A stretch of DNA of 41,227 bases. Source: a virus. Position 1 is the stretch's first letter; the number at the start of each line of letters is the position of its first letter. The notes under the pieces are model-generated. The model did not search any database, had not been told where the DNA came from, and was given only the letters and a program-made list of their open reading frames with translations. A program made the translations under genes and the position numbers. Below are positions 12,396 to 41,227 of this stretch, in pieces. Where the stretch lies: positions 1 to 41,227 of the IMG/VR virus record IMGVR_UViG_3300030107_001140; one strand, 5' to 3'.

Positions 12396-12418
12396 GGTAA
12401 ATAAATGTAGTGGGTTAA

Positions 12419-12586: not shown

Positions 12587-12658
12587 AAAGAGTTGGTTAA
12601 ACGAGATGCATTTGCAATTGGTTTGGTCAACTTCGAAATGCCAGCAGTCTCAACTGTC

Positions 12659-14233: not shown

Positions 14234-14235
14234 TC

Positions 14236-16398: not shown

Positions 16399-16441
16399 TT
16401 AATAAGTTTACGCTAATGTTGGATTGTCTTTCATTTATTTT

Positions 16442-17370: not shown

Positions 17371-17795
17371 TGAAGCGGCTTTTGCCACTGTTATTACTTA
17401 TAAGTTCCCCTGCTTATAGTGTTCCTGTTGTGCCAAACTTCTCTCAAGGGAGTATGCAATCTACCACTCGTACTGTTTCAACAGTGGTAGAAAGTATAGT
17501 CTCAAAAGATTATAATACGGGTTCTCAATACACATTGACTGGTAGTAATTTAACTATTAATGGATCAACAATTTCCCCAAGTAGTACCTCCGTAACAGGC
17601 AACGTTGATGGATCATCTCAAACATGGACAGGCTTAGATCTTGGCTCAAGGCCAAACGTCACCATTACCAATGGAGGCCAGCCCTTTCAATACACAGAAA
17701 CGTATCGAGGGCCCGGATTGTCAAACATGACAACCATAAACCGCACAACAAATATAGAAAGTACTACAGAAACTGTGTCAGTATTTGCACAGTAG
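17370..17795 (+). CDS. Secreted protein (about 141 aa)
   Basis: ATG 17370 overlaps the previous stop as TGATG; an in-frame GTG three bases earlier is less likely. The signal peptide is MKRLLPLLLLISSPAYS. The mature part is Ser/Thr/Asn-rich (TLTGSNLTINGSTI) with repeated short strands, like the preceding protein and possibly related to it by duplication. It ends in a threonine-rich stretch that is also coding in another frame. No enzyme motif. A role in host envelope interaction is inferred only from the export signal. Confidence 0.75.
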   Translation: MKRLLPLLLLISSPAYSVPVVPNFSQGSMQSTTRTVSTVVESIVSKDYNTGSQYTLTGSNLTINGSTISPSSTSVTGNVDGSSQTWTGLDLGSRPNVTITNGGQPFQYTETYRGPGLSNMTTINRTTNIESTTETVSVFAQ

Positions 17796-19076: not shown

Positions 19077-19229
19077 ACTAAATTAGTAAATAATAACTTC
19101 TTTGCTAATATTTAGACACCTAGACCCTTCTTGCAACTACAACGGCCCTTTGCGGAGGATACCCAGAGTAAATGAAGATTAGGTCGGGAAAAAACACCCA
19201 ATTCTTTTCATTTATCTAGGTCATTTTGT
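19077..19229. promoter_or_regulatory. Divergent spacer before the capsid gene
   Basis: 153 bases between the GTG of the minus-strand proline-rich gene and the capsid ATG. As the only long non-coding stretch inside the rightward unit, and placed before the most expressed gene, it probably contains a phage RNA polymerase promoter and a promoter for the opposite gene. I could not define either from the sequence alone. Confidence 0.4.
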
Positions 19230-20207: not shown

Positions 20208-20214
20208 TCTTTAT

Positions 20215-20236
20215 GGGGGGCTTTGCCCCCCTCTTT
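20215..20236 (+). terminator. Intrinsic terminator after the capsid gene (T-phi-like)
   Basis: A perfect 7-bp stem GGGGGGC-TTT-GCCCCCC (20215-20231) is followed by TCTTT. It starts 7 bases after the capsid stop. T7 has its main terminator, T-phi, at the same place between genes 10 and 11. Partial termination there lowers expression of tail genes relative to capsid. Confidence 0.9.
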
Positions 20237-20239
20237 ACT

Positions 20240-20845
20240 ATGCCTTTACTTAAAACAAGTCAATTAGAAGCAGTTAATAGAGTGCTTCAGATGATGGGTG
20301 AAGCTCCTGTTAATAGTTTGTCTGGTCAATTTGGTTTAGCTAAACAAGCCGATGACACCCTTACTGATGTAAGCCGTAGAGTTCAGGCAGAAGGATGGTC
20401 TTTTAATACTGATTATCAGGTAACTCTTACGCCTGATTCAAATAAAAATCTTTTGGTGGGCAGTAATGTCAGCCGTGTAGTTGTTGATATTCTTGCTTAT
20501 CCTGACTATGACATTATTGAAAAAGGAGGAAAATTATATGATCGTTTAAATCATACTTTTGAATTTACTGATGATGTAAAAGCTGATCTTACTTATATGT
20601 TGGACTGGGATGATCTTCCTGAACATGCTCGTCAATACATAATGACTAGAGCAGGTAGACAACTTCAAGAAGCAATTATAGGAAGTACAGATCTTACAAA
20701 ATTAAATATGGCAGCAGAAGCAGAAGCAAGAACACAATTTGTAGAAGAAGAAACAACGAAGAGTGAACATAATATGATTAGAGGAAATCCAAATCGGTTT
20801 GGTCCATTAAGTACTTATATGCCGGGCCGAGCCGTTATTAGGTAA
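20240..20845 (+). CDS. Tail tubular protein A (T7 gp11 family)
   Basis: 201 residues from ATG 20240 (T7 gp11 196). The ATG at 20213 is rejected because its first codons lie inside the terminator stem. It forms the ring between portal and nozzle. Typical features: EAVNRVLQMMGEAPVNSL at the start, ADDTLTDVSRRVQAEGWSFN, and the C-terminal LPEHARQYIMTRAGRQLQEA helix. The gene is followed by tail tubular B with a gap of two bases. Confidence 0.94.
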   Translation: MPLLKTSQLEAVNRVLQMMGEAPVNSLSGQFGLAKQADDTLTDVSRRVQAEGWSFNTDYQVTLTPDSNKNLLVGSNVSRVVVDILAYPDYDIIEKGGKLYDRLNHTFEFTDDVKADLTYMLDWDDLPEHARQYIMTRAGRQLQEAIIGSTDLTKLNMAAEAEARTQFVEEETTKSEHNMIRGNPNRFGPLSTYMPGRAVIR

Positions 20846-20847
20846 CT

Positions 20848-23505
20848 ATGCCATTAATTAGCAGTACTATTCCTAACCTGATTAATGGGGTTAGCCAACA
20901 GCCTCCAGCATTAAGACTGGCTTCTCAGGCAGAGGAGGTAATTAATTGTATGCCAAGTCCAGTAGAAGGACTAAAGAAGCGTCCTCCTATGGAACATATT
21001 GCTAAGATATTTGCTGGTAGTGCTGGAACTAATAGACCTTTTACAACGATTGTTGATAGAGATGGAACTATTCAATATCTTATTTTCATTCAAGATGGAG
21101 ATATTAAAGTTTTTGGTTTAGATGGAAGTAGTAAAACAGTTAATAAGCCTAATGGAACTGATTACTTAGATATATCTAACAGTGCTGATCCTTCTGAGAG
21201 ATTTAGAGTTGCATCTGTTGCGGACTATACATTCATTACTAATAGAGAAAAAGTAGTTACTACATATTTTCAAGATGGAGTTACTTATAGTCAATCAGGC
21301 ACAACTGTTACTGTTACTTCTGCTAAACATGGTCTTACAACTTCTGATCGAATTTCAATAGATTGTACTTCTGGAACTGGAGTAGATGGTAAATATAATA
21401 TAACTTCTGTTGCCACTGATTCGTTTACATATACAGCAGGTACGTCATTAAGTACAAGTGGTAATGCTGCGTATAACGTAATGACTCCTACCTTTGGTAC
21501 GGATTCAATGGTCTTTATTAAAGCAGCAGATTATTCAGGTACATATAAAGTTAAAATTAAAAGTGCTGATGGTACTAGCACACTTGCAGATGTTAGTTAT
21601 ACAACAGCAGCAGTAGGTGGTACGCAACCTGATACCTTAACTATTGCAACTAACCTACGAAATTCTCTTGCTTCAGCATTAAGTAGTGGATGGACTTTCA
21701 CTGTTGTAGATTATATTATTCAGATTAAGAAAAATGATGGTGGTGATTATCAATTAGAAAGTTCAGACACTAAAACGGGAACATTTACAAAAGCTATTAA
21801 AGGGACAATAGATACTATTACTGATCTTCCAACATTAGCTCAACATGGATTTATTATTAAAGTACAAGGTACAAAGACGACTGGATTAGATGATTACTAT
21901 GTAAAGTTTGAAACTTCTGCTGGTAGTGGTACAGGTGGAGGTATTTGGAGAGAGACTTCTGGACCAGATATTAATAGAGGATTTAATCAAAAGACTATGC
22001 CTCATGTTCTAGTTAGAAATGCAAATGGTACTTTTGACTTTAAAGAATTTGAATGGTCACATAGAATTTGTGGAGATGAATCAACAGTTTTAGATCCTTC
22101 ATTTGTAAATAGTAAGATAGAAAATATAAACTTATTTAGAAATAGACTTGTATTTCTGGCAGATGAAAATGTAATTCTTTCTGCTGCTGATAACTATGAC
22201 CGATTTTGGCCAGAAACTATCCAAACTGTTGTCGATAGTGATCCTATTGATTTGGTTACTGGTGGTACTGAGATCAATTTCTTAACCTCTAGTCTTGCCT
22301 TTGCTAATACTTTGTTGTTATTTAGTCGTCATGGTCAATTTAGATTAGATGCTGGCGTTACAACTGTAGGTACAAGTTTAACTCCTAAAACTGCCAATGT
22401 TACTGCTATTACTAGTTTTGAGATGGCAGCTACAGTTGATCCTGTAGGAGTGGGTAGGACTATTTATTTTCCAATTCCTAAAGGAGAATATAGTGGATTA
22501 AGAGATTTCTTTTTACCAGATTCAACAGGTGGAGTTCCTCTCTCAGATGAAGTTACTTCAGCTATTCCTAGATATATTCCGGGAAATTTAACGAATTTAA
22601 TTGCATCAGTTTCAGAAGAAGCAATAGTAGCAATTTCTAAGGATCAACCTAAACGTATTTATATATATAAATTCTTCTTTGAAGGTGATAATAAATTGCA
22701 ATCTGCTTGGTCTTATTGGGAAGTTAAAGGAGCAAAAACTATATTAGGAGCTGCAATTTTAGATAGTGACATGTATTTAACTATTCAATATAATGATGGT
22801 GTTTATTTAGAGAAAGTTGCATTACGTCCTGAAACTGTTGATACGGGTAGCACAATAGAATTATTACTAGATAGAAAAGTTACAGAAGCGAGTTGTTCAA
22901 CTGCTGTTACAAATCCCGGAGGATTAGGAGTTCAAACAACAATTACTCTTCCATATCCAATGGCAACAACAGGAACAATGGCAGTAGTAGGAAGAGATGT
23001 CAGTGGTAATACTATTAGTCATGGTCAGGTTATTAATCCTACTAGTGAAACGTTAACAGGAGGTGCAGGTGGTAATGGAACGATGGTAGTCAAAGGAGAT
23101 TTAAGTTCAGCTAAGTTTTTTGTTGGTGAGTTATACGATATGGGATATGAGTTCAGTACGCCTTATTTAAAAGAACAACCATCAGCAGGTGGTATGGCTG
23201 TAGTAGCAGGACCAAAATTACAAATTCGGACTTGGGCTGTTGTTTTTGATGACACTTCACACTTTGTTTTACGAGTAACTCCTGCGGGAAGAACTGCTAA
23301 CGATTATCCTTATAATGGAATCTCTGTTGGTACAAGTCCTCCTTCTCTCGGTACTCCCGGTATTGGTACAGGTAACTTTAGAGTCCCTGTAATGGCAAGC
23401 AGTCTCGATACTAAGATTGAAATTCTTAGTAGCAGTCCTGTTCCTTGCAGAATACAATCAGCAGAATGGGAGGGGTGGTTACAATCACGGGCCAAGCGAC
23501 TTTAA
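20848..23505 (+). CDS. Tail tubular protein B, nozzle (T7 gp12 family)
   Basis: 885 residues (T7 gp12 794). It builds the nozzle of the short tail. The N-terminus carries the family signature IPNLINGVSQQPPALR and, further on, NCMPSPVEGLKKRPP. The region around residues 120-320 is richer in Thr, Gly and Ser than T7 and may be an inserted beta domain, accounting for the extra length. The middle segment DRFWPETIQTVVDSDPIDL matches the family. AGG lies 5 bases before the ATG. Confidence 0.94.
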   Translation: MPLISSTIPNLINGVSQQPPALRLASQAEEVINCMPSPVEGLKKRPPMEHIAKIFAGSAGTNRPFTTIVDRDGTIQYLIFIQDGDIKVFGLDGSSKTVNKPNGTDYLDISNSADPSERFRVASVADYTFITNREKVVTTYFQDGVTYSQSGTTVTVTSAKHGLTTSDRISIDCTSGTGVDGKYNITSVATDSFTYTAGTSLSTSGNAAYNVMTPTFGTDSMVFIKAADYSGTYKVKIKSADGTSTLADVSYTTAAVGGTQPDTLTIATNLRNSLASALSSGWTFTVVDYIIQIKKNDGGDYQLESSDTKTGTFTKAIKGTIDTITDLPTLAQHGFIIKVQGTKTTGLDDYYVKFETSAGSGTGGGIWRETSGPDINRGFNQKTMPHVLVRNANGTFDFKEFEWSHRICGDESTVLDPSFVNSKIENINLFRNRLVFLADENVILSAADNYDRFWPETIQTVVDSDPIDLVTGGTEINFLTSSLAFANTLLLFSRHGQFRLDAGVTTVGTSLTPKTANVTAITSFEMAATVDPVGVGRTIYFPIPKGEYSGLRDFFLPDSTGGVPLSDEVTSAIPRYIPGNLTNLIASVSEEAIVAISKDQPKRIYIYKFFFEGDNKLQSAWSYWEVKGAKTILGAAILDSDMYLTIQYNDGVYLEKVALRPETVDTGSTIELLLDRKVTEASCSTAVTNPGGLGVQTTITLPYPMATTGTMAVVGRDVSGNTISHGQVINPTSETLTGGAGGNGTMVVKGDLSSAKFFVGELYDMGYEFSTPYLKEQPSAGGMAVVAGPKLQIRTWAVVFDDTSHFVLRVTPAGRTANDYPYNGISVGTSPPSLGTPGIGTGNFRVPVMASSLDTKIEILSSSPVPCRIQSAEWEGWLQSRAKRL

Positions 23506-23972
23506 AAAAGATTGCCTTTCAAAGAACTTCGGTTCTTCAAGATGTGGTTGATGTTGCTGAAAGTATGCGACCAGAAGATGCTGCTGAATTGTATGCACTA
23601 TCAGGAGATACGCCTAAAGGAGGATTACTTTACTGTTATCTAAGGAGTAAGCCATGTATGACAATGGTTAGTAGACATGGATATGTGATGGGAATGTATG
23701 GAGTTATTCCAGAAAGAGAAGGGGTTGGTAGGATATGGATGTTAGGTCGAAATGAAATGACAACAGATAAATTAGATAAGATTACATTCTTGAGACAAGC
23801 AAGAATTGAATTAGATAAATTGCATAACAAATATCCATTATTATTCAACGTTATAGATGCAAGAAATCAAGTGCATATTGATTGGATACGTTGGATGGGG
23901 TTTACTATTATAAAAAGACATCCACAGCTAGGAATGGAAGCTCGTCCTTTCTATGAATTTGTGAGGATCTAA
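23466..23972 (+). CDS. Internal virion protein A-like (T7 gp13 position), GNAT-like
   Basis: 168 residues from ATG 23466; a TTG at 23445 is less likely, and a GTG at 23475 is possible. T7 gp13 (138 residues) sits at the same place between tail tube B and gp14, and related phage proteins are predicted to have an acyltransferase-like fold. Here the order ... helix (RPEDAAELYALSG), strands YVMGMYGVIPEREGVGRIWMLG, and helix ... HIDWIRWMGFTIIK is that of a small GNAT domain. Overlaps the previous gene by 40 bases. No acetyl-CoA loop is obvious, so enzyme activity is doubtful. Confidence 0.8.
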   Translation: MGGVVTITGQATLKKIAFQRTSVLQDVVDVAESMRPEDAAELYALSGDTPKGGLLYCYLRSKPCMTMVSRHGYVMGMYGVIPEREGVGRIWMLGRNEMTTDKLDKITFLRQARIELDKLHNKYPLLFNVIDARNQVHIDWIRWMGFTIIKRHPQLGMEARPFYEFVRI

Positions 23973-23976
23973 CTGA

Positions 23977-24672
23977 ATGTGTGGGCCAGCGGCAGTCATT
24001 GGTATAAGTAGTGCGATCCTTGGGATCGGCTCACAATATATGGCGTATCAGCAAGCGAAGGCTGATACTAAATTCTATAATCGACAAAGACAACTTGAAT
24101 ATGGTGGAGCTGTATTACAGGCTCAAGCGAATAGAAATACGGAAAGTATTAGAAGACAAATGAATGAGAATTTTCAGGCCCAGACTAAGTTTATGGCTGA
24201 TCGAGCTTTTGAAAATAAGATAACTGGTCTTCTTACTGAACAACAACAAATTCAAGTAAAAACAGCTCAAGAATTAACTGAAAGAGAGATTGAAGCGAAA
24301 GAGAAAGCTGGTGCTGTTAAGGCTTCAGGTAGGATAGGTCTGACTGCTGATAGTTTGCGTAGAGCTATTAAGGCACAAAAAGGAGCTGCTGATTTCTTAA
24401 CGAGTCAGAATACTGCGTTTGCCTTTATTAAAGGACAACAAGAGAAGAAGGTAGCTGCTGCAACGAGAGGATCAAGAATTGCTAGTGCTAAAGATTATGT
24501 TGAAACGACTTACTTAGATCCGGTGAAACCGTTAAAGAAGAAAGCTCCGGGCTTTGGTCAGTATGCTTTGGGTATGGCAAGCAGTGCGTTGGGAGGCTAT
24601 AGCACAGCTATGGGTATGGCTGCTGACAGGAAAGTTCTCGGCCTCAAACCGTGGGGCTGGGGTACAGCTTAA
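23977..24672 (+). CDS. Internal virion protein B (T7 gp14 family)
   Basis: 231 residues (T7 196). In T7 this core protein is ejected into the outer membrane as part of the DNA channel. The N-terminus MCGPAAVIGISSAILGIGSQYMAYQQ has the membrane-active helix expected at the start of gp14, followed by long Gln/Glu/Arg/Lys-rich helices (residues about 30-170) and a Gly-rich C-terminus with a second apolar stretch. GAGG lies 10 bases before the ATG. Gene order gp13-14-15-16 is as in T7. Confidence 0.9.
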   Translation: MCGPAAVIGISSAILGIGSQYMAYQQAKADTKFYNRQRQLEYGGAVLQAQANRNTESIRRQMNENFQAQTKFMADRAFENKITGLLTEQQQIQVKTAQELTEREIEAKEKAGAVKASGRIGLTADSLRRAIKAQKGAADFLTSQNTAFAFIKGQQEKKVAAATRGSRIASAKDYVETTYLDPVKPLKKKAPGFGQYALGMASSALGGYSTAMGMAADRKVLGLKPWGWGTA

Positions 24673-24678
24673 CTAACT

Positions 24679-27600
24679 ATGGCACGTTATTCACTTGGTA
24701 AAAACACTGGTACGACTGATAAAAGTACCAGCTCTCGTTCTACTCCTATAGCTGGAGAAGATCTAACTTTTAATGCTTCTATTGGTGAAGTTCCAAAGAT
24801 TAAGCAACCTCGTATTCAAGTACAGAAATGGCAAGGTGATACATACATTAGTAATCCAAGTCCAACCTTAGCTCCTCAATTAGATCTACCTGATTTAGGA
24901 AATGTATTAGCTGAACCCAATAGAGATTTTGCAGGATTAGCTGATGCGCTTTCTGGCTTAAACACACAATTAAAAAACTTTGGAAGTGTTCAAACAAAGT
25001 ATGAAGGAGTAATGCAGAAGGCCGCCAGAGATGAGGCGAATGCAATTATCAAACAAACATCTGTTGAAGGAACTGCTTCACAGAAATTAGCGAATCTAAA
25101 CGCAGAATTAGAACGAATAATTAAAGATGAGAATTCAAGCAAGGAGGATGTTGCTTATGCAAAAGCAACACAAGAAAGGATTCGGACAGATAGTAGATTA
25201 GCTCCGGCAATTGAATCTGCTTATAGAGAAGAGGAAGTTCTTCAGAATGCAGCAGGATTAAGTGTGGCTGCACAAACAGCAACAATTAAAGGTATAGATC
25301 CTAAGTCTGGAGATGAAATAGATATCCCTGTTAATACACTGAGCCCTAACGATGAGAGATATATTAGTTGGGCAAATGATTATATATTTAATGATGCAAC
25401 AAGAAAACTTAGTAGCTTTGAATATAAAAATGTTAAAGGTCAATTAGCTCAATATTTAGCAAATGATAAAACAGCTCAATCCAAACGCTTTAATAAATAT
25501 CAAAACAGGGAATATGTAAAGAATTTCAATTATGAGACTAATAAGATAGGAGAAGATTTAAGAGATGGATTTATTACAAAAGAACAAGCTATATTTAAGC
25601 TGGAAGCTTTATTAGAAAGAGGAAGAATAGGTCTTGTCTCTGAACCAATTAGAAAAGAATTACAGGAAAATCTGGTGGAAAATGTACTAGTTGCATATAT
25701 GAAAAATAACAAAAATGGAAATGTTACTGACTTAAATGATATGTTTGGATCAATAATGACTGGTCCTGTTGAAAGTCGTGTAATTGATAAAGAGGATAAG
25801 ATTACAATTACAACTCAAGAACAAGCTGACAGACTTGGTTTTGGAGAGATTGGAGATGTTGTTACTGATGTATATGCAGTTAGAAATGATAAACAATTAT
25901 GGATTAATCAGTTCCCGGCAGGATATTTAGAAGCAAGAATTTCAGATGCAAATACTAAATTAGCATTAAATGATGAATCAAAGCAAAGTGTTATTAATGG
26001 GATAGAAGAAACAAATTCTATCGCAATATTTAAAAAAGAGGTCTTTCCTTTATTGGCTGGAGAGATATCTAATATTCCTATAGCACTTGTAAAGTTAGGC
26101 GAGTTAAGAAATCAAGCTATTGAGGCTGCCGATGGAGATGCTGCAAAAATAGATGCAATTAATAAAGCATATGATAAACGTGAGAATACTTTGTTTGGAA
26201 TATTCAGTGTTGATTACAATCAGGATGTAGATGGTTTAGATGAAGCAGCACGGGCTGCCCTAAGAGATCCAAAAAACATTCCTATCTTTGCTCAGAAGCT
26301 TTATCTTTTTGAAGAGAAGTGGTCAGGATATAACAAGGCTGATACTTATTTAAGAGAGAAAGCTAAAAATTATGAACGTCTTTATGAAAAACTAACAACA
26401 GCACAACTTAAACCAATTCAAGGAGTTTTATCATCAGCTAAAAAATACTATATTAATACTATAGGTAGAGAAGAAAGAGGGAAATATAACACTTTAGATG
26501 AAGAAGCTCAATGGAGTTTGATTGAAGAAAATATAATGGATGACTACGTTAGTGGAATAGATCTTAATTGGTCAGCACAACAATTAGATGCATACAATAA
26601 GAAATTTATTGAACAATTTACAGGGGCGAATAAAAAGTTATTTATACAGAAATATATGCCAGATATTTTCCAGAAAGAGGAACAAGAAAAAACTATTATA
26701 AAGCCTACTTATGAAGGAACAGTAACAGAAGGTTTGAATATATGGGAACAACAAGCACTTAATACTGGTGAACTTAATAAGAAGGGTTTGTTAAATAATA
26801 ATGGTAGGGATAGGATAAGAATTTTATATGAAAGTGATACACCTTTATTAAGTGTTGATTCTTTAGATAGTGTTATTAAACAACTTAAAAATAAAGGGAC
26901 AATAGATAGACGACTTAAAGTTATTATTAATAATTTGCCGGGGGATGCACAGGGAAAATTAGGAACTTTCCTTCTACATGAATATAAGAAACATGGAATT
27001 ATTCTAAACGAAGCTCAGGAGAAAGAGATCTTAAGTTTAAATGGTAGAAAGATGGCACAGATAGAGAAGAGAGATAACACATTAAATGCTTTTGCTCCTT
27101 CATTCTTCCAACCTTCAGTCTTAGTTGCTTCTACTAATTTATCTGGTCTCTTAGCTCCTCCTCCTGTAATAGCAAAGCCTAATCAAGATCCTTTAACTCA
27201 GCCAGATGCGTTAAAGAATCTAATTGGTGAGATGAATGGAGCTTATCAATTCCGTGGAGCAAGTAATCCTAATTATCAAAAAGGAGATTATAGAAGCAAT
27301 AAGAAAGGTAATTGGTTCTTCGATTTTAGACCTGAGTTAATTGATGCGGCAGGTGAAAGGATACAAACACTTACTGAACAAGATCTAAACGCAATGACAT
27401 TAGGTGCTTTATTAGAAGCTGGTACTACTACTGACTTGGAAAAATTTGAGGTAGGTGCGAATCTTTTAATTCGTTCAGTAGCAGCAAACAATGCTCCAAT
27501 CGCAGAGATTTTAACTGCACCCAACCAATATGAAGCGATTTTCAATCCAATGGGGAGGGTGAAAGGACTAACTCCTTATACAGTAGAGGAGCTAAACGCA

Positions 27601-27714
27601 ACTCCAAACTTTGTGAAACTAGGATTACTACTACAAGTTAGTCCTAAGAGAGCAAGGACTCTATACTATTTCCATAGGAATCAATTTGCATCCCAAATCA
27701 AATCCGAGGGTTAA
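24679..27714 (+). CDS. Internal virion protein C (T7 gp15 position) with a possible wall-hydrolase-like C-terminus
   Basis: 1011 residues against about 747 in T7. Most of it is predicted helical with many Lys, Glu, Asp and Asn, as in gp15, which forms a ring and channel in the ejected core. The C-terminal part (about 850-980) differs: LGALLEAGTTTDLEKFEVGANLLIRSVAANN, then EILTAPNQYEAIF. This order (Glu in an EA..G context, an 'A..LI.R' helix, then 'QYE' segment) resembles SleB-type cell wall hydrolases; E913 would be the catalytic candidate. In T7 the muralytic domain is in gp16, so it may have moved here. This is a pattern match, not a search result. Confidence 0.8.
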   Translation: MARYSLGKNTGTTDKSTSSRSTPIAGEDLTFNASIGEVPKIKQPRIQVQKWQGDTYISNPSPTLAPQLDLPDLGNVLAEPNRDFAGLADALSGLNTQLKNFGSVQTKYEGVMQKAARDEANAIIKQTSVEGTASQKLANLNAELERIIKDENSSKEDVAYAKATQERIRTDSRLAPAIESAYREEEVLQNAAGLSVAAQTATIKGIDPKSGDEIDIPVNTLSPNDERYISWANDYIFNDATRKLSSFEYKNVKGQLAQYLANDKTAQSKRFNKYQNREYVKNFNYETNKIGEDLRDGFITKEQAIFKLEALLERGRIGLVSEPIRKELQENLVENVLVAYMKNNKNGNVTDLNDMFGSIMTGPVESRVIDKEDKITITTQEQADRLGFGEIGDVVTDVYAVRNDKQLWINQFPAGYLEARISDANTKLALNDESKQSVINGIEETNSIAIFKKEVFPLLAGEISNIPIALVKLGELRNQAIEAADGDAAKIDAINKAYDKRENTLFGIFSVDYNQDVDGLDEAARAALRDPKNIPIFAQKLYLFEEKWSGYNKADTYLREKAKNYERLYEKLTTAQLKPIQGVLSSAKKYYINTIGREERGKYNTLDEEAQWSLIEENIMDDYVSGIDLNWSAQQLDAYNKKFIEQFTGANKKLFIQKYMPDIFQKEEQEKTIIKPTYEGTVTEGLNIWEQQALNTGELNKKGLLNNNGRDRIRILYESDTPLLSVDSLDSVIKQLKNKGTIDRRLKVIINNLPGDAQGKLGTFLLHEYKKHGIILNEAQEKEILSLNGRKMAQIEKRDNTLNAFAPSFFQPSVLVASTNLSGLLAPPPVIAKPNQDPLTQPDALKNLIGEMNGAYQFRGASNPNYQKGDYRSNKKGNWFFDFRPELIDAAGERIQTLTEQDLNAMTLGALLEAGTTTDLEKFEVGANLLIRSVAANNAPIAEILTAPNQYEAIFNPMGRVKGLTPYTVEELNATPNFVKLGLLLQVSPKRARTLYYFHRNQFASQIKSEG

Positions 27715-27717: not shown

Positions 27718-30700
27718 ATGTCGCTTGAGCAAGTAGTAACAGAAGGTGTTGAAAAAACAGAATGGGTAATGCCTGAAGGAGATTTCCCTGAAGTCATCGA
27801 ATCTGTAGGTCCAGATGGTGAGGAATCAGAGGATACTTATGGAGATATTCCAACGGGAGAAACAGTAGAGCCAATAAAAGTAGAATCACAGGAAGTAGAT
27901 ATTAAAGATCCAACTAATTATTTTTATGATTTTAAGAATTATAAGGGTATCTATGAAGATAAAGGATTAACTACAGATCAAACATTTCTTCCAAAGAATT
28001 TGAATGTTTGGGATATAGATTATGAAGGTGTATATACAGATGGAACAAAAGATTTGTCTGAGCAAGAGAAAACAACTAATCAAATAAGTGTTTGGATAGA
28101 TGAACATCCTGAGTTGATACCAGTTATAAAGGAATTAGTAAAAGAAACAAGTGATGGAGGAATAAACGTTACTGTGGCAGAACTGAATGCTGCTATTAAT
28201 AATCCAGCGATACCTCAATTAACTCGATTAAAATTACAAGCACTAAGTATGGGGCAAAATCCCAGTGGCACCGCTTATCAAGATAATTTTAGTGGTAGTG
28301 CAAGAAGAACAGCAATGTCAAGCTGGAATGCTACAACAGGTTTTACTGGAGATATCCTTGCAAATATCAATAGAGGAATTTCTTTTCAAGGAAATAATGC
28401 AAGAAATTTAACAGGTAATTATCCTGCCTACACAGGAGAAGGGCATGTCTTTGATGATGCTCCAATGGGAGCTAATCGTAACTTTAGCTCTGACTACTTG
28501 GAACAAAAAGGGATAAGTTCAAGGGCATGGATAACAGGGAATGGCGAGGAGGTTTATCTAAATCAATCTCAAGTTGGAAATCGACTTGGATTAAATGAAC
28601 TTGAAACAGCTAAATGGTTTTGGAAGAGACAAGAATGGCCAACTTATTTAGAAGTTCCAAATAGAGATGGTGGGACTACAATTCTTGGTGCAGTTATTCC
28701 CGGAGCTTATGACTTAAATCAAGGTCGTATTAGAGATAACTTAGGTTTAAAAGTTGAATATAAAGAGGATGGATCTTTTAAATCAGTTTTATATAATGGT
28801 CGTGAATATTTGTCAGAAGATTTAAAAAGTGGTTTGCTTAATTTCCAAGGTGGAAGTTTAGATAATGTTTGGGGATTAAAAGATCCTACTTTTAATGTTC
28901 CTCTTTTAGGAACTGATGCTGCATGGTATCAGCGATTTATAGAAGGTGGTGCTCCACATATGGGACCACAGTTAGTTCTTACTGCACTATCAATAATTGC
29001 ATTGAAAAAGGCAGGTGGAGGAAAAATACCTTTTCATGGTCCGGGAATGAGGACATCAGCGGCATTAAGATATAAAGCTGGAAAGAGTTGGGCTGGTGGT
29101 AATTTTGCAGCAGCATTCAGTCAATACAGTAAGGGGACTGCACTTAAAGGAATTTCTGAATGGGCTATCCCTTCTCTTGGAATTGAACTTATTTCCTATA
29201 ACCGAGAGAATGGAAATATATCTGATGCAATTGTTGCACAATGGCCCGCATTAGAAAGTCCATTTACAAAAATCTTTCAAAGTAATGAATTAGATTCTGC
29301 TAGTTGGGCACTACTTAAGAACGTTGGTGTTAATGAATTCTTTGGTGGTGCTACTGCTGGTACTGGATTTGAAGTATTCGGTGATGCTTATAATCTAAGT
29401 AGGCGTGGATTGAGGAGTGGGATTCAATTTGATAGAGGTTTAGCTTCACAAATAGGAACCGAATTTAATACTGCATTGGGTGAAAGCTATACGAAGTTAT
29501 TTGGGAATGTATTCCATAGCGATACTCTTAGTTTTAAGGTAGGCCTACTTAATAAAATTAAAGCAGGTTTTAGCCCTGATTTTGGAGCAGGAAAACTTGA
29601 GTGGCCTCAATACCCTAAGGGCAAGAGTGCAGCTACGGAAATGGTTCCGGGAGGTAGGTGGTCTACTTGGCTTAAGGAGAATCAAAGAAAACCACAATGG
29701 CCTCAACCATATACAGAACAACAAAATATTGTTATAGATCCACAGTCGAAATTAGATGCACGTTTTTCTTTTGATACAGCAGATCTACTTCAATTTGATA
29801 TTAAAGATGAGAAGACTTTAAATAAGGCTATTACAGAGGCAGAAGCAAAATTAGAAGTTGTTAATAATAAAGTTGAATCGGCATTAAAGGAACTAACGGA
29901 AACAATGTCGAGAATAAAAGAGACGACTCAGCCGAAAGAGCAACAGATTCTTCGTCAGATGGATATAGATGAAGCGTTAATTAAGCCCTTGCCTGAAGAA
30001 GTATCAGATGTTCCTCTTAATGAAATCAAAACTGCTCCTCAATATTTCCAAGTTAAAGAATCTGGAGCTACACAAGCAGAAGGGGTAAGTGGATCTCTTC
30101 AAGGGGCTAGAGGATTTGATACAGAATTAGCAGGATTAGTAACTCTATGGCGTGATACAGATGGAACTATTGGTGATCCCGGAAGTATCTATGTAATAGA
30201 TGGACATAATAGATTAGATCTTGCTAGAAGATCTGGTAGAAAGAATATTCTCTCTCGTTTTATTAATGTTCCTACATGGCAGGAGGCTAGAGCTAAAGCA
30301 GCATTAATCAATATTGCAGGTACTCAAAGTCTAAAAGGAAGTATTGAATCATTAGATGTTGCAAGGTTTCTGCGTGATGAGAACTTTACTATTGATGATT
30401 TAGCAGCAAGAGGAATTAATTTACAAAGTTCCTTAGTTGCTGAAGCTGTTCGACTCAATAGATTACCAGATGATTTATTTGCTCAAGTTGGTACAGGTGA
30501 ATTGGCTGTATCTAAAGCATTAGCATTAGGTTCTGCTGAGGGTGTGAGTCCAGAAGCTATACGAGAAATTTATAAGATTGCAAAGAAACAGCGATGGTCT
30601 ATTGCAAGGATTGAGCAAGCAATAGTAATGGCAAGGAATGCAACTGTTGGAGTTGAAGAAGGTGTATTCCCAGAGTTAAGTGCTTATTTCAAACAGTCAA

Positions 30701-33700
30701 ATATCAAGCAGTTATTAACAATTAGAACTGAGGTAGTAAAACAATTAAGGGCAAGGATAAGAGCATTAGCTCCAGCTACAAGACTTGAACAAGCTGGAAT
30801 GTTGGAAGAAGTAGCAGGTACAAGAATTAATATTGAAGGTAGTAGAGAACAAAGGTTAGCAACTCAGGCTGTACTAAATGTTTTTAATAGAGTGGCAGGA
30901 TTCGATGGACCAGTCACTAATATCCTTACAGATTTAGCTTCACAAGTTAAAGGAAATAATGCTGCATCTTTAGTTAAGAAAAGGCTTTCTGATATTGAAG
31001 AAGCAATTATGCAGGAAGGTCGTATTGATACAAAAGTTCCTGAAAGTATATTCAATCAGTCAGTAGTTAAACAAGTAACTGATCTATCTAAAAAAACAGA
31101 GAAAGTAGCAAGAGCAGAGATAACCAGAGAATTACCAATTGAAGAGATAAATCCTAAAACTGTTATTGAAGATGAGGCTAAGTTTAATGAGACGTTCCCA
31201 ACGGAAGTTAGAGCAGAAGCTACTAATCAACTTGCAAAGAAAGGTCAGATCACTTCAGATCTAAGAAAAATTGAAGATACTCCACCTCCTACAAAAGTCA
31301 CAAAGACTAAGGTCCCACCTGCATTAGTTGAAGAAATAAAGAAGAGTATTGATCCTAAAGATCCTTGGTTTAGTAGTGAGGCTAAAGATCAAACAATTGA
31401 TGTAAAAGGAGAAGAACTTCCAATACCTGAGATTCAAAAGCTTTTAACAGAACGTCCAAATGAAATTCCTGTAGAAGATCTTTCTCCAGCAGTTACAGCA
31501 TTAGCGACTGTAGATCCAAAAACTCCACTTGATTTATTTATTAGATCTGCACCTGATAGTCAACAAGCATCAATTGCATTTAATAGATTAATAGATTCTT
31601 TTGAAAAGTTTATTGATGGTAGAGAAGCAGAGGGTAGATTCGGTCCAATTGATACTGTAGGAGATTTTATTAATCTATTAAACATAGGAAGAGTTGCGAT
31701 AGAAGAAGGAACACAGAAAGCTTTAAGAGATATAAAGACAGCAGATAGATTTGGGAGACTAGCTGCACCTTATGTTCAGAAAGCAGGTAAGGCTTTTCTT
31801 CAGAAAGCTATTGCAGATATTGAACAAGTTCAGATATATACAAAGGCTTTGCAACTTGAGATAGCTGGAAAGATTGATGCGGCTGGAAAGAAAATATTAG
31901 AGGCAGGAGAAGAAGCAGATAAGCAATTAGCTGATATAGACAACTGGGAGAATCCAAAGTGGTTAAATAAATTTTTTGAAAGAGCTGGATTAAAAGAAGA
32001 TGCTGAAAGAGTATTTCCTACGAAACGACCCACATTTGATGATAGTGCTCAGCCTAGGAATTGGGCTGGTAAGTCTGCTCCTAAATATGCTGGTATGTAT
32101 ATTGATTGGGAATCAGATGTTGATAAGGCTATCTATATAGTTACTACTGCTAAAGCTAATAAGAAGAATAGTAAATCACATGCGAAATTCTGGACTTGGC
32201 TAACAGAAGAATTAGGGATACCAGAAGATGAGATTGTTGAGACTGGTGTTCTTATTAGAGATGAATTAAAGGAGAACTATGAGGATGGTTCTACTTGGCG
32301 AGTTGAGGATACACTTGCTTGGCAGTTTGGAGGAACAACAGATTTAATGACCTTTAACTGGGAGGATGTAAGAGCTGGTAAGTTTTTAGAAAAATTAGAT
32401 GAAGCAACACTTAAAAAATATTTAGATATAAAAGACCCTAAGAGTAAAGATGTAGATGATTTAATTAAAAGAGCTAAGGAGAAATACACTGATTATGCAG
32501 AGTTATTTCCAACAGAAGGATATGGAGATGATACTCTTGGTGCTCGATTCAGAGGTCCACTTTCTGAAGCAGCAGAACGGGAAGCATTAATTAGACAAGC
32601 TAGAAGAATATTTCCAGCAGGTAAGATTGACTTTCCATTTGAAATTAAAGAAACAGTTTCAGAAAGAACGGCAAAAGTTCATCCTAAATTGAAAGATAAA
32701 GTCGGCAAGACCTTTATGGCAGCAGGTGCTTATACGGCTGATCCAAGAGGAGCAGCTCACGATCTTATTCGTGTAGCTCAAGCTTATGGTGGTGTTCGTG
32801 CAAGCTTTAGTCAAAGATTTTGGACAGTAACACATGAAGCAGTTCATGGTGTGTTCAGAAGATTTATGACTAGAGAACATGCTGAGCTACTTCTTACTGG
32901 CGAAAGTCATCTACGTGAAATAGCAGCAAGTGTTGCTCCACATAAAGCTATAGAGATATTGAATGGTAGTGAAGGTTTTGGTGAAGTTCTTTCCTATGCA
33001 GCAATGGGATGGCATAAGGTTAAAGGAGAGTATTTAACAGTTGGTAAGCCTGATCCAACATGGGCGCAACCTCTACAGAAGTTAGAGCAGATTGTAAATA
33101 CAGTTAAATCATGGCTTGGTAAAAAAGGATATACAAGATGGGATGAATTGTTTGAGGATATTGTTGAAGGTGAATACGTTAAAGATAGAAAGATTGCTGG
33201 AAGAGATTCTCTTAAGATTGGCGATACAATGTATTACTTTGGTGCTTTCAATAAGAGTGTCCAAGATATAGATTTTCAGCCAGCATTTAGAGCACCTGAT
33301 CCAGAAGATTTCAATGCAAGAATAGAAGGATATAAAGCTCAAATGAAAGCAGGTGATATTACATTATTAGAATTAATGATGTCAGATACAAGAAGAACTG
33401 TCAGCAGAGGAAGGGACGCCAAGGGTAACTATGACTCGAAGATTCCGGGTAAAACTTTATACTTATCTCTAAGTGAAGAAGGATTTATTTTATCTAGCAG
33501 AGTAGTTGAAGATCAAATTAAAGAGTTAATTAGTGATACGCGGGCTGGAAGAACAGGTATTCAAGATGTAAGTGAAGCCAAAATCTTACATGCAGCTAAG
33601 GAGTTGGCATTAGGAAATGAAATGAGTACAGAGAAAGTAATCAATTTATGGGAGAAAGCAAGGGGTGGAGATATTACTGCTGAAGATGATCTTATTACGA

Positions 33701-36700
33701 GCACGGCTATTGGAGTTCTTAGAGATCAAAATCAATTAGCCATTAAAGAATTATCAGTTACCTTCAAAGGAATTGCTGATGGTGAGATTGGTATTGAACA
33801 GAAAGGAATTCTTGCAAGTAAGTTAACTGCTTTATGGCAGAACCAATTAGTTCTTAATCAGGTATGGGAACAGATAACAAGGAAGTGGGGACAGGCTGGA
33901 CGCATGATGCAGATCAATGTAGATACATCACATCTAACTCTGCAAGGCAATACACCATTAAAAAGTTATCAGGTAAGTGAAGAGTTGGTAGAGAAAGCCA
34001 TGACTGAAGGACTTGATGTAGAGAATGGTCAACTAGGTGATGGTGTTTACTTCACAACTAATGATGATCCAAATGGTATAGCAGTTATTGATGGGAGTCT
34101 TCCTAGTAGCGTAGTCATCCTTGATCTTGTTAGAGAAGGTAAAACTCTTTCTGGTTTCTTAGAAGAGATAGGTCTTGATCCAGTTATTAAGGATGGAATC
34201 TTAAGTGCCGACCAAAAACTAGGTATACAAAACTATGCTTTAGAAAAAGGATATGACGGAGTTAGATTCCCGACTGATCTAAAGACTGAATCAGTTGGAG
34301 ATCGAGTTGTTATCTATGATCGCAATGATGCGAATAGAGTTATTAACTCTCAGGCAGCACAACCTCCAGCTATGGATGTTGATGCAGGTAACGATGCTTT
34401 ACGTCCATTTATAGAAAGAGCTATTAAAGATGCTGGACAAATATTAGAGAAGAAGTTACCACCAGATGTACTTAAATCAATTCAAAGTGGAGAGCTTACT
34501 GTTGAGGCAGAAAAGGTTATTGATGAGTTAGCAGAAGTTGCATACACAATGAATACATTACCGAAGAAAGATTCTACTTTCTATGTTAAAGATGTTAGTG
34601 ATCTAATCGCTGAGATCCCTGATGGCATGGGCTTCCAAAGAACTATTGCAGACATTAGACGTAACGCATTATTCTTAAGGATGAGTACATGGGGCAAGGT
34701 TGCGTTGGCTGGTACGACTAGATTACTTGCCATGCCAATTGCTAGATATATAGGTAATGGAAAAATATATCAGAAAGCAATGGGAGAAGGTAATAACTTT
34801 GAAGCAACATCAGCAAAGCTAAGGCAGCAAATTGATAAGAATTTATGGAGACAGATGTTCTATGAAATTCCTAATGCTTGGAGATTGTCAGGATTTGCTT
34901 GGAAGACAGGAGAGGCTTTAGTTAATCCCGGCAAACAACATTACCAAGATGCAAGAGTAAACCAATTCGAGGCTCAAGATAAAGCTGGTAATTTATTAAC
35001 ACAAGAAGAATTTGAAGCGGCTGGTACAGATAGGGCTTTAGTTAAAAGAGAGTCGCCTACTGCTAACTGGTTTGATAAACCAACTGCTAATCCAATTGCT
35101 TTAGCTATTCGTTATATGAATAAATTTGCACCTACTAGATTCTTATATCAAACAGGTGCACGTAAAGGATTATCTGCTGTAGATACATTCATTAGTGGAA
35201 TCGGTGGTCCTGCCTTTGAACATGCTCGACTATTGGAATTAGAGCTACATAATATGAGAGTAAAAGGAATGGTAATAGATCAGAAAAACTTTAATTTGGC
35301 TATAGAGAAAGTAGAGAATCAAATGAAAGCTAAATGGGTTGATATGATTATCAATGGTGAATTAATAGAGAACGCTTATTTAGATAGTAAGTATGCACAG
35401 AATGGGATGAATTATGTAAACATGACAGATGATATTAAGGTTGATCCAGATCAAAGGACATGGCGTTATGGAATCAAGAGAGCAGAGGAACAAGGTATCG
35501 TTGATGCTGCGGAGAAGGTTAAGTTCGCAGAAGAATTTGTAAAGACAAAAGTTGATGAAGAGAATTTCTATCAGGGCTTCGGTAAAAAGTCAGTTGATGC
35601 TGCCTTCCATACTGCAAGAAGAGCCATACCTCATCTATCGCAAAAGATCAAAGAAACTGAACAGGCATTCCCTATAACAGGTGTAGCTATTCCTACTAAT
35701 AGAACTTTAATAAATCTATTTAAGGCAACTGCTCGTTATGTGGGATTAGGTGAACATATTATTGATAGTGCATGGAGAGATATAAATCATGAGGATGCAA
35801 ACATTAGAGCCAATGCACTAGGAGAACATGCGATTGGTCAATTCCTTCTTACATCAGGAACCCTAATGGCAATAAGTGGCATGTTGGAATTTAGCGGACC
35901 TGAACCTCTTCTCTGGAGAGAAAGGGAGAAGTGGAAGAATATTGGAAAGATACCCAACAGTGTCAGACTTAAATTCCCTTGGGGTGGTGCTGGCCCTTGG
36001 GTAAATGTAGGTGCTTTTGATGCTGCATCTCCTATCCTCGCAATCATTGGTAGTTGGATAAGCGAACTAGATAGGATTCCACATACTGAAATGAATGATG
36101 GTAATGACAACTTGACTGCCATTATGGGAATCCATGTAGCAGCTTTAAGAAATGCAATTTTTAAGGCAGGGCTAGCTCCCTTTGGCGATGCAACTATGAA
36201 ACCAATAGGTGATTTATTTGAATTGTTTGAAGATCTAATTGATAGTAAAGATCATCGTCATGTTCGAGGAAAGTCCAATCCTGCTGGTGTATGGCTAGAG
36301 AGATTGCTAACTGGAATGATGGTTCCGGGTATGGTTCAAGACATGACTAATTCCATAGATCCAACACTACGAAGAATAGAAGAGAGTGAAGCTTGGGGAC
36401 CAGTGGCTACATTGATAAATACTATGAATAGAATTGGAGCAAAGCTTCCTTACTTCTCTCGTAATTACCCTGCTGTTTTACATCAAATAACAGGTGAACC
36501 TATTGTGTTAGATGGACATCTCGGCTCAGGCTTAAGTCAATATCTATGGGACCCATTCAAAATGGTTAATGGTGTAATGAATCCATTAGGTGCATTGAAA
36601 GTTAGGAATCAATCTACAGATATAGTCGATGAAGAGATGGCACGATTAACTGGTAAGAATTCATCGTTTGTTGTATGGGATAGGAGAATGCTTGGATTAT

Positions 36701-37101
36701 CTAACTATACTCTTTCTACTAAGGAATTAAATGAGTTGATTCGTATTGGTACTCAGGAGGTGACGAATAGTGATGGCCTTACATTGCATCAGGAACTAAC
36801 ACGAATCATTACTGAATCTCCTGTCTATGCAGGGAAGAAAGATATGGGTAATGTTGTCATTCCCGGAGACAAGAGAGATCTACAACGACCAAACATTCAT
36901 GGCCCCGGAGAGAAAATTAACTATTTAATGGAAACAATTAATCTATATAAAAAACTAGCAGTCGAGGAATTCTTCAATAGGCATCCTGAGTTGCAAGAGA
37001 TGAAGGATGCAAAGGATCAATTTGACTGGGAAAGAAATGCAACAACTGATAACCTAGGACCACAGAGTAACCTTGAAGCATGGAGGGCACTCATCGCTTA
37101 A
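27718..37101 (+). CDS. Giant internal virion protein D (T7 gp16 position), polyvalent-protein-like (3127 aa)
   Basis: More than twice T7 gp16 (1318). Likely ejected with the DNA into the host. Regions in order: acidic N-terminus (1-100); a weakly hydrophobic segment near 415-435; a ParB/sulfiredoxin-like domain at about 760-900 (VIDGHNRLDLARRSG at 826-840, then NIAG and LRDENF); long helical linkers; a zincin-like region with HEAVH at 1706-1710 and a possible third ligand E1752 or E1756; an ADP-ribosyltransferase-like region about 2080-2210 (GDGVYF at 2107-2112, GYDGVRFPTD from 2178, VVIYD); and a C-terminal part with apolar stretches near 2350 and 2720. These domain types occur together in phage polyvalent proteins, which enter the host with DNA. 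GAGG precedes the ATG by 8 bases. I do not see the T7 transglycosylase region. The frame is open throughout, arguing against an assembly artefact. Confidence 0.85.
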   Translation: MSLEQVVTEGVEKTEWVMPEGDFPEVIESVGPDGEESEDTYGDIPTGETVEPIKVESQEVDIKDPTNYFYDFKNYKGIYEDKGLTTDQTFLPKNLNVWDIDYEGVYTDGTKDLSEQEKTTNQISVWIDEHPELIPVIKELVKETSDGGINVTVAELNAAINNPAIPQLTRLKLQALSMGQNPSGTAYQDNFSGSARRTAMSSWNATTGFTGDILANINRGISFQGNNARNLTGNYPAYTGEGHVFDDAPMGANRNFSSDYLEQKGISSRAWITGNGEEVYLNQSQVGNRLGLNELETAKWFWKRQEWPTYLEVPNRDGGTTILGAVIPGAYDLNQGRIRDNLGLKVEYKEDGSFKSVLYNGREYLSEDLKSGLLNFQGGSLDNVWGLKDPTFNVPLLGTDAAWYQRFIEGGAPHMGPQLVLTALSIIALKKAGGGKIPFHGPGMRTSAALRYKAGKSWAGGNFAAAFSQYSKGTALKGISEWAIPSLGIELISYNRENGNISDAIVAQWPALESPFTKIFQSNELDSASWALLKNVGVNEFFGGATAGTGFEVFGDAYNLSRRGLRSGIQFDRGLASQIGTEFNTALGESYTKLFGNVFHSDTLSFKVGLLNKIKAGFSPDFGAGKLEWPQYPKGKSAATEMVPGGRWSTWLKENQRKPQWPQPYTEQQNIVIDPQSKLDARFSFDTADLLQFDIKDEKTLNKAITEAEAKLEVVNNKVESALKELTETMSRIKETTQPKEQQILRQMDIDEALIKPLPEEVSDVPLNEIKTAPQYFQVKESGATQAEGVSGSLQGARGFDTELAGLVTLWRDTDGTIGDPGSIYVIDGHNRLDLARRSGRKNILSRFINVPTWQEARAKAALINIAGTQSLKGSIESLDVARFLRDENFTIDDLAARGINLQSSLVAEAVRLNRLPDDLFAQVGTGELAVSKALALGSAEGVSPEAIREIYKIAKKQRWSIARIEQAIVMARNATVGVEEGVFPELSAYFKQSNIKQLLTIRTEVVKQLRARIRALAPATRLEQAGMLEEVAGTRINIEGSREQRLATQAVLNVFNRVAGFDGPVTNILTDLASQVKGNNAASLVKKRLSDIEEAIMQEGRIDTKVPESIFNQSVVKQVTDLSKKTEKVARAEITRELPIEEINPKTVIEDEAKFNETFPTEVRAEATNQLAKKGQITSDLRKIEDTPPPTKVTKTKVPPALVEEIKKSIDPKDPWFSSEAKDQTIDVKGEELPIPEIQKLLTERPNEIPVEDLSPAVTALATVDPKTPLDLFIRSAPDSQQASIAFNRLIDSFEKFIDGREAEGRFGPIDTVGDFINLLNIGRVAIEEGTQKALRDIKTADRFGRLAAPYVQKAGKAFLQKAIADIEQVQIYTKALQLEIAGKIDAAGKKILEAGEEADKQLADIDNWENPKWLNKFFERAGLKEDAERVFPTKRPTFDDSAQPRNWAGKSAPKYAGMYIDWESDVDKAIYIVTTAKANKKNSKSHAKFWTWLTEELGIPEDEIVETGVLIRDELKENYEDGSTWRVEDTLAWQFGGTTDLMTFNWEDVRAGKFLEKLDEATLKKYLDIKDPKSKDVDDLIKRAKEKYTDYAELFPTEGYGDDTLGARFRGPLSEAAEREALIRQARRIFPAGKIDFPFEIKETVSERTAKVHPKLKDKVGKTFMAAGAYTADPRGAAHDLIRVAQAYGGVRASFSQRFWTVTHEAVHGVFRRFMTREHAELLLTGESHLREIAASVAPHKAIEILNGSEGFGEVLSYAAMGWHKVKGEYLTVGKPDPTWAQPLQKLEQIVNTVKSWLGKKGYTRWDELFEDIVEGEYVKDRKIAGRDSLKIGDTMYYFGAFNKSVQDIDFQPAFRAPDPEDFNARIEGYKAQMKAGDITLLELMMSDTRRTVSRGRDAKGNYDSKIPGKTLYLSLSEEGFILSSRVVEDQIKELISDTRAGRTGIQDVSEAKILHAAKELALGNEMSTEKVINLWEKARGGDITAEDDLITSTAIGVLRDQNQLAIKELSVTFKGIADGEIGIEQKGILASKLTALWQNQLVLNQVWEQITRKWGQAGRMMQINVDTSHLTLQGNTPLKSYQVSEELVEKAMTEGLDVENGQLGDGVYFTTNDDPNGIAVIDGSLPSSVVILDLVREGKTLSGFLEEIGLDPVIKDGILSADQKLGIQNYALEKGYDGVRFPTDLKTESVGDRVVIYDRNDANRVINSQAAQPPAMDVDAGNDALRPFIERAIKDAGQILEKKLPPDVLKSIQSGELTVEAEKVIDELAEVAYTMNTLPKKDSTFYVKDVSDLIAEIPDGMGFQRTIADIRRNALFLRMSTWGKVALAGTTRLLAMPIARYIGNGKIYQKAMGEGNNFEATSAKLRQQIDKNLWRQMFYEIPNAWRLSGFAWKTGEALVNPGKQHYQDARVNQFEAQDKAGNLLTQEEFEAAGTDRALVKRESPTANWFDKPTANPIALAIRYMNKFAPTRFLYQTGARKGLSAVDTFISGIGGPAFEHARLLELELHNMRVKGMVIDQKNFNLAIEKVENQMKAKWVDMIINGELIENAYLDSKYAQNGMNYVNMTDDIKVDPDQRTWRYGIKRAEEQGIVDAAEKVKFAEEFVKTKVDEENFYQGFGKKSVDAAFHTARRAIPHLSQKIKETEQAFPITGVAIPTNRTLINLFKATARYVGLGEHIIDSAWRDINHEDANIRANALGEHAIGQFLLTSGTLMAISGMLEFSGPEPLLWREREKWKNIGKIPNSVRLKFPWGGAGPWVNVGAFDAASPILAIIGSWISELDRIPHTEMNDGNDNLTAIMGIHVAALRNAIFKAGLAPFGDATMKPIGDLFELFEDLIDSKDHRHVRGKSNPAGVWLERLLTGMMVPGMVQDMTNSIDPTLRRIEESEAWGPVATLINTMNRIGAKLPYFSRNYPAVLHQITGEPIVLDGHLGSGLSQYLWDPFKMVNGVMNPLGALKVRNQSTDIVDEEMARLTGKNSSFVVWDRRMLGLSNYTLSTKELNELIRIGTQEVTNSDGLTLHQELTRIITESPVYAGKKDMGNVVIPGDKRDLQRPNIHGPGEKINYLMETINLYKKLAVEEFFNRHPELQEMKDAKDQFDWERNATTDNLGPQSNLEAWRALIA

Positions 37102-40757: not shown

Positions 40758-40940
40758 ATGGCTGCTTATCAACTCGTTAAAAATCACATTGCTTCGTTAA
40801 GGGAAGACAAGGAAATTCTTGAGAACATTGTTCTTAGGAAAGCCGATAACACCTACATCCCTACAAACTCAGACAATCCTCAATACCAAGAGTATCTTGA
40901 ATGGGTTGACGCTGGTAACACCCCTGACCCTGCTTCTTAA
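40758..40940 (+). CDS. Small fibre-associated protein (60 aa)
   Basis: MAAYQLVKNHIASLREDKEI, then a C-terminus NPQYQEYLEWVDAGNTPDPAS. The ending 'N..YQ.YL.WV..GNTP..A' is common at the C-terminus of small proteins next to phage tail fibres, some acting as fibre chaperones or adaptors. It starts two bases after the fibre stop and ends two bases before the next ATG. The 3' part is repeated at the left end of the window (1-46). The exact role is unknown. Confidence 0.7.
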   Translation: MAAYQLVKNHIASLREDKEILENIVLRKADNTYIPTNSDNPQYQEYLEWVDAGNTPDPAS

Positions 40941-41227
40941 TCATGGCACTAACAACTGTTAATTCAGATGGCATGAAGGATGACAGCATCAAGAATGCTG
41001 ACATTAAATCTGATGCTGCAATAGCAACTTCAAAATTAAGTGGAGCGGTTACAGGGATTACTTCTCATGGCCTTGCTGCTTCAGCGACTACAGATACGAC
41101 TAACGCTAGTAACATTAGTTCTGGAACAGTACCAACAGCAAGACTTGGGAGTGGAACAGGAAGCTCATCAAATTACTTAAGAGGTGATGGAAGTTGGCAA
41201 CCCCTTAGTGAATATGACGATACAAAG
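40895..41227. repeat. Right copy of 333-bp terminal near-repeat
   Basis: Counterpart of 1-333, same length, no gaps, 9 mismatches. See the left copy for positions. The right copy joins to a complete 60-residue gene on its left and ends at codon 95 of the fibre-like gene. Joining the copies gives a circular unit of 40894 bases. Confidence 0.95.
40943..41227 (+). CDS. 5' part of the fibre-like gene, cut by the contig end
   Basis: The frame encodes the same 95 residues as the start of the complete gene at 49-1632. The 9 base changes against that copy are all synonymous. The gene is cut by the end of the window and is best read as the second copy of the contig overlap rather than as a duplicated gene. 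Confidence 0.9.
   Translation, partial: MALTTVNSDGMKDDSIKNADIKSDAAIATSKLSGAVTGITSHGLAASATTDTTNASNISSGTVPTARLGSGTGSSSNYLRGDGSWQPLSEYDDTK

Follow-up and report, generated by a model that had tools for sequence, protein, structure and literature searches.

A 3127-residue internal virion protein homologue with a cassette of enzyme-type domains in a marine T7-like virus

We analyzed IMG/VR virus record IMGVR_UViG_3300030107_001140 (here referred to as "the window", meaning the whole stretch of 41,227 bp) and focused on its giant gene of 3127 codons. The product is probably an ejection protein, the third and largest of its set in a T7-like virus related to the MPP-C cyanophages, with a polyvalent cassette placed between the two halves of an ejection-protein scaffold. 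As the initial annotation had proposed, the protein is an ejection-protein homologue, with internal virion protein modules at both ends, and its extra length consists of enzyme-type domains (ParB-like, zincin metallopeptidase and ADP-ribosyltransferase-like, the last referred to as "ART-like") together with helical linkers.

Genome context of the giant gene

The window carries T7-like matches to T7-type RNA polymerase, primase/helicase, endonuclease I, exonuclease, portal, capsid, gp12, gp14 and T7 tail fibre. The first and last 333 bases (1–333 and 40895–41227) match at 97.3%, and all 9 differences between them are at third codon positions; this overlap makes it probable that the contig represents a whole circular genome, about 40.9 kb in length, assembled from two strain variants. 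The virus appears to be a marine, cyanophage-like relative of MPP-C, and a cyanobacterial host is likely because no DNA polymerase A gene was found in the window genome and its TerL is 82% identical to those of P-SCSP1a-u, which are MPP-C Prochlorococcus phages. The cultured P-SCSP1 lineage of MPP-C has likewise been described as lacking DNA polymerase (PMC9860041).

The giant frame runs uninterrupted from ATG to stop. At the base composition of the window, log10 P for a chance open frame this long is about −94, and GC at the three codon positions of the frame is 0.515, 0.395 and 0.217. Its 9,384 bp account for 22.8% of the record and 22.9% of the circle, which agrees with the earlier statement of almost a quarter of the genome and an open frame of 9.4 kb. 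A misassembly fusion can be ruled out, since the fused frame recurs in independent contigs and in 17 isolates. The genes leading into it are the tail tube gp12 (phrog_457), a gp14 homologue and a 1011-aa gene in the gp15 position, and the gene following it encodes the tail fibre (Phage_T7_tail, E=5e-34). The giant gene starts 3 bases past the gp15-position gene and ends 3 bases ahead of the tail fibre gene, and thus holds the gp16 position, as claimed. The claim of more than twice the usual size also holds against T7 gp16 (1318 aa), Syn5 gp45 (1415 aa), P-SSP7 gp16 (1245 aa) and S-TIP28 (1192 aa). Comparable lengths do exist, namely the P-SCSP1 relatives (2571 aa), several environmental relatives (3000–3225 aa) and the N4 virion RNA polymerase, vRNAP (3500 aa). 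The coordinates are collected in Table 1.

Table 1. Positions of the giant protein, its segments and selected other genes in the window.
Feature	Position	Strand	Residues or size	Basis or remark
Giant internal virion / polyvalent ejection protein (proposed)	27718..37101	+	3127 aa, 348 kDa, 0 Cys	Open frame; family homology
N-terminal ejection-protein motif (GN.SD...P.LE...SNE.D...KN..E)	29149..29433	+	478–572	hhalign
ParB-like domain with HTH	29983..30642	+	756–975	HTH_ParB; Noc/ParB profile matches; GHNR 829–832
Conserved domain around "ESDVDKAIYIV"	32092..32397	+	1459–1560	Common to P-SCSP2 gene 30, hhalign 95.4%, E=2e-8
Zincin-type metallopeptidase	32758..33207	+	1681–1830	HExxH 1706–1710, third-ligand Glu 1756
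ART-like domain, catalytically degenerate	33940..34362	+	2075–2215	PARP matches in relatives
C-terminal internal-virion-protein module	34435..37098	+	2240–3127 (888 aa)	hhalign, phrog_6651, BFVD fold
gp14-like internal virion protein	23977..24672	+	231 aa	Pfam T7_gp14 E=1.1e-8; single Cys at residue 2
gp15-position protein	24679..27714	+	1011 aa, no Cys	Synteny; Cys count
Portal	2809–4575			Separate gene from the giant
T7-type RNAP	8855–11230			Separate gene from the giant

Two other features of the genome were recorded. The block of scaffold, portal, replication, RNAP and terminase genes (1840–16041) is inverted with respect to P-SCSP1. Contigs L043 and L046 show the same relative orientation of the block as the window, and L009 agrees for terminase and capsid; the order of P-SCSP1 is found in L018, L021 and L081, which shows that each arrangement exists in nature. 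Moreover, the interval between terminase and capsid holds four small genes (16424–18409), two of them with signal-peptide-like N-termini, and includes overlapping frames at 17367–17795 and 17624–18409. These four are perhaps lysis or surface genes.

Relatives of the giant protein

By tblastn, relatives were found in 17 cultured Prochlorococcus phages of the P-SCSP1 group, with about 28% identity. Their version is gene 21 (g21), annotated as "hypothetical protein"; the authors who described P-SCSP1 referred to g20 and g21 as internal virion proteins, as a speculation from size and position (PMC9860041). Gene 21 of P-SCSP1a-u shares with the giant the order ParB, peptidase, ART-like domain and C module, the gene position and the complete lack of cysteine, but is 556 aa shorter and keeps the Glu at the ART catalytic position.

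We then searched IMG/VR with the C-terminal region as query. Among 94 matches, 80 loci were kept, and 36 representatives were left once near-duplicates had been removed, the complete ones being 2224–3225 aa long. Dozens of marine viral contigs carry a relative; none was confirmed in GTDB genomes. Their usual domain order is a variable N-terminus, ParB, linker, zincin, ART-like domain and C module. The exceptions are some relatives without a detectable ParB, in which Pfam gave no matches except weak ART-PolyVal ones, and a few without the ART-like part. P-SCSP2 gene 30 (1596 aa) contains the C module (93.6%) and the DvDKAiYI domain (95.4%) and gave no ParB signal. Nohivirus S31C1 has its ParB match in a gene of its own (1484 aa, 18417–22871), upstream of a 1145-aa gene (22874–26311) with a weak link to the C module; this pair in the gp16 region is a possible split version of the giant.

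Two ends shared with short internal virion proteins

The profile of the C module aligns with the proteins of Syn5 (gp45), S-TIP28, S-CBP1, two Roseobacter phages (CRP-804 and CRP-114) and the Desulfovibrio phage ProddE at an hhalign probability of 100% (E=2.6e-41, 615 columns), and phrog_6651, named "internal virion protein", was matched by 8 relatives. In BFVD, the AlphaFold model built for the C module (mean pLDDT 70, pTM 0.64) matches by fold viral models annotated as internal virion protein, ART-PolyVal-like and large polyvalent protein, with a best E of 3.8e-19. At the other end, the N-terminal motif aligns with residues about 190–260 of internal virion proteins of ~1200–1400 aa (91.6%, E=8.4e-7), while the probability never exceeded 0.13% in any of 20 column shuffles or in a reversed control.

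Thus the marine T7-like internal virion proteins (Syn5 gp45, S-TIP28 gp48, S-CBP1, CRP-804/CRP-114, ProddE; phrog_6651) have homologous sequences at both ends and the same gene position, but they are only 1192–1415 aa long and lack the ParB/zincin/ART cassette. Because both ends are homologous to the short proteins and the zincin/ART profile finds nothing there, the simplest reading of the sequences is that a cassette of ~1,550 aa was inserted mid-chain into an ancestral ejection protein of ~1200–1400 aa.

T7 gp16 itself resembles the giant in gene position, presumed role and lack of cysteine, but differs in its transglycosylase domain. No profile similarity was detected between the two (hhalign probability 0.2%), and the short marine proteins also gave only 0.4% against T7 gp16. 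No SLT lysozyme/transglycosylase domain was matched in the giant by Pfam, which a divergent domain could escape, and PDB searches by sequence and by fold, the latter with the models of the zincin/ART region and of the C module, had no significant result and matched none of the solved structures of ejection proteins.

Domains of the inserted cassette

The enzyme-type parts of the cassette can be divided into three. First, the ParB-like domain matches HTH_ParB in Pfam with E=5.6e-4 in the window, at a score just below the curated cut-off, and with E=2.8e-5 in the best relative. The family profile matches Noc/ParB structures over the NTP-site and HTH region (best E=6.4e-4); the DdrB-ParB model of Pfam was not matched. 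The GHNR motif is invariant in 27 sequences, and dN/dS is the lowest here (0.015–0.12), making this the most constrained segment. A PHROG label of "portal protein" (phrog_21, E=9e-29) spans the ParB segment only and was rejected because the portal is a separate gene.

Second, in the zincin-type metallopeptidase, His1706, Glu1707, His1710 and Glu1756 are invariant in 29 of 29 sequences, down to 19–30% identity, with dN/dS of 0.08–0.23. HExxH with a downstream Glu is the published pattern for polyvalent-protein metallopeptidases (PMC5512222). The conserved domain around "ESDVDKAIYIV", which precedes the zincin, is LPD-like. The modelled HExxH helix has a pLDDT of about 80, and much of the remaining modelled region is helical. 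Profiles and motifs, not fold, are the basis of the zincin and ART-like assignments, since the zincin/ART model is of moderate quality (mean pLDDT 69) and Foldseek found nothing significant for it in PDB (best E=0.16).

Third, the PARP catalytic domain is matched in three relatives (L044, 9.2e-6; L046, 1.3e-5; L022, 1.8e-3), all of which keep H-Y-E. Compared with the published H-Y-D or H-Y-[E/D] site, the window keeps the Tyr, lacks the His and has Arg in place of Glu. Relatives with an intact first His have Glu at the strand-5 position, whereas the Arg of the window is preceded one residue by an Asp, given which some residual ART activity may persist. Despite the loss of His and Glu, dN/dS of the domain is 0.10–0.30, indicating purifying selection. 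In the window branch it is probably a binding or structural module and not a transferase. Because of this loss, only the metallopeptidase (HExxH and Glu) and the ParB-like GHNR site look intact among the enzyme-like parts. Purifying selection in the protein is strongest on the ParB, zincin and ART parts.

Profile searches, which might have returned nothing but generic coiled coil, instead recognised the ParB-like, zincin and ART-like domains, so the idea of enzyme-like content withstood this check. We regard it as extremely improbable that the giant is an ordinary divergent gp16 homologue with coiled-coil padding whose enzyme calls are chance motif matches. The window protein alone indeed gives only sub-threshold Pfam matches, but independent family profiles match ParB/Noc structures and PARP, the catalytic motifs stay constant or nearly so across widely diverged sequences, and the C module groups by fold with polyvalent proteins.

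A purely structural ejection protein, in which the inserted domains are decayed enzymes serving as spacers or scaffold for an internal core or a trans-envelope channel, is unlikely in our judgement, but has more in its favour. Purifying selection acts on the ART-like domain even though its catalytic His and Glu are lost in the window branch, helices make up much of the remainder, and the short relatives manage without the cassette. Against this stand the constancy of the zincin ligands and of GHNR and the strong constraint on the ParB segment.

Exclusion of cysteine

The giant has no cysteine in 3127 residues. At the window rate of 1.01%, 31.7 would be expected and P(0) is 1.5e-14; at 0.54%, the rate in other virion structural proteins of the compared phages, P(0) is 4.5e-8. 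The 36 representatives together have 6 cysteines in 90,755 residues, and their cassettes, taken from ParB to the C module, have none in 32,892. In these family counts and in those below, residues of related proteins are non-independent.

Experimentally known ejection proteins (T7 gp15 and gp16, P22 gp7, gp16 and gp20, N4 gp50, gp51 and gp52) are also free of cysteine. For a comparison set picked by hand, we took 32 large proteins that are ejected or encoded in an ejection position, from the window and from phages including T7, P22, N4, LUZ19, P-SSP7 and Syn5, along with other structural proteins and enzymes. Cysteine is missing from 29 of the 32, whose 36,959 residues together contain 5. The other structural proteins contain 138 in 25,593 and the enzymes 176 in 11,619. 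Among proteins of at least 500 aa, cysteine is absent from 26 of 29 ejection proteins and from 0 of 23 other structural proteins. In the family contigs, the gp15-position neighbours have 5 cysteines in 22,783 aa versus 52 in 18,128 aa of the downstream fibres. However, scaffold proteins are likewise free of cysteine in several of the compared phages, so its absence is no proof of ejection. A full-text search of open-licence papers found none stating such a rule.

Two observations accompany these counts. In 7 of 10 phages, T7 included, the gp14-like protein contains just one cysteine, as its second residue (M-C-...; in the window at 23977–24672 and in L003, L104, L108, L109, L103 and L115), possibly reflecting a modified N-terminus. 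The clearest cysteine-bearing exception among large ejection proteins is internal virion protein D of ProddE (L107, 2370–6173), with 3 cysteines; its host Desulfovibrio is a strict anaerobe, and this single case is suggestive for the idea of periplasm oxidation.

An unfolded chain threaded past an oxidising periplasm would be expected to experience selection against thiols. Because the cassette is as strictly free of cysteine as the scaffold, it too probably crosses the periplasm and is ejected. A wider reading is possible, and we offer it only tentatively: cysteine exclusion would be a general physical signature of proteins that short-tailed phages push across the periplasm of Gram-negative hosts, and the 3127-residue chain would be translocated in one piece together with its cassette, refold in the host and be cut into separate effectors by its own metallopeptidase.

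Proposed working and comparison with known systems

From the observed architecture, homology, catalytic-residue conservation and cysteine exclusion we infer a scheme of packaging, ejection, refolding, cleavage and targets. On the grounds of homology and synteny, the giant would be packaged near the portal with the gp14- and gp15-type proteins and then ejected via the tail, the last of the set, and its C module and N-terminal motif would form the inner part of a cell-envelope channel. As cysteine is totally absent, the whole chain most likely passes the tail and periplasm unfolded. The cassette would refold in the cytoplasm, where the metallopeptidase would be the first to act, probably cutting the chain and freeing the ParB-like part. 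Once freed, this part would bind DNA, either that entering the cell or that of the host, as soon as infection begins. The cryo-EM study of the relative P-SCSP1u models only capsid, portal, adaptor, nozzle and fibre, and the terms "core protein" and "inner core" are absent from it (PMC10575957).

The zincin might instead cleave its own chain at assembly, as proposed for P1 DdrB, so that only fragments would be found in the virion and the ParB and zincin parts would take part in head assembly or act inside the cell that makes the virions. DdrB, a polyvalent protein with ParB and metallopeptidase domains, is indeed processed before packaging (PMC5512222). However, the N4 vRNAP, with its HExxH domain, is packaged unprocessed (PMC5512222), and the family-wide lack of cysteine in the cassette is what would be expected if it crosses the periplasm. 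We consider cleavage before packaging quite improbable.

N4 vRNAP (gp50) is a further parallel to the ejected giant proposed here. Like the giant, it is very large, lacks cysteine, comes third among the ejection proteins and carries an HExxH domain ahead of an extensive helical region at the C-terminus (PMC12633501); there is no detectable sequence homology between the two, and no RNA polymerase domain was matched in the giant. The N4 protein is present in about 4 copies and is proposed to cross the tail unfolded and then refold (PMC12633501), a precedent which shows by analogy that a chain of this size would be deliverable.

The giant also resembles the phage-type polyvalent proteins (Iyer et al. 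2017, PMC5512222), in which zincin, ART and ParB occur in one late-gene protein. It is encoded among the late genes and has at least two unrelated functional domains (ParB/HTH, zincin, ART-like and internal virion module), as such proteins are defined. A competent ART site (H-Y-[E/D]) is lacking in the window; ART is a common but non-obligatory polyvalent domain. The giant differs from known polyvalent proteins in that it sits in a T7-like gp16-position scaffold, its ParB carries an HTH and its ART is degenerate.

Significance

Polyvalent proteins and a giant ejected protein, the N4 vRNAP, are kinds already known. What is new is that the protein of the MPP-C lineage receives an assignment, that its scaffold is split by a cassette, that ART catalysis is lost in the window branch and that the cysteine signature extends over the cassette. 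Under the proposed assignment, the largest gene in a lineage of cyanophages abundant in the ocean, designated "hypothetical" in the isolates, acquires a function that can be tested. It would also place polyvalent early-effector proteins in cyanobacterial phages, for which the survey found such proteins scarce in cyanobacteria (PMC5512222), and suggests a route by which they may arise, namely the placing of an enzyme cassette into the middle of an ejection protein of the T7 type. Moreover, if the cysteine-free rule is valid beyond our sample, it would provide a simple sequence test for injected phage proteins and protein parts.
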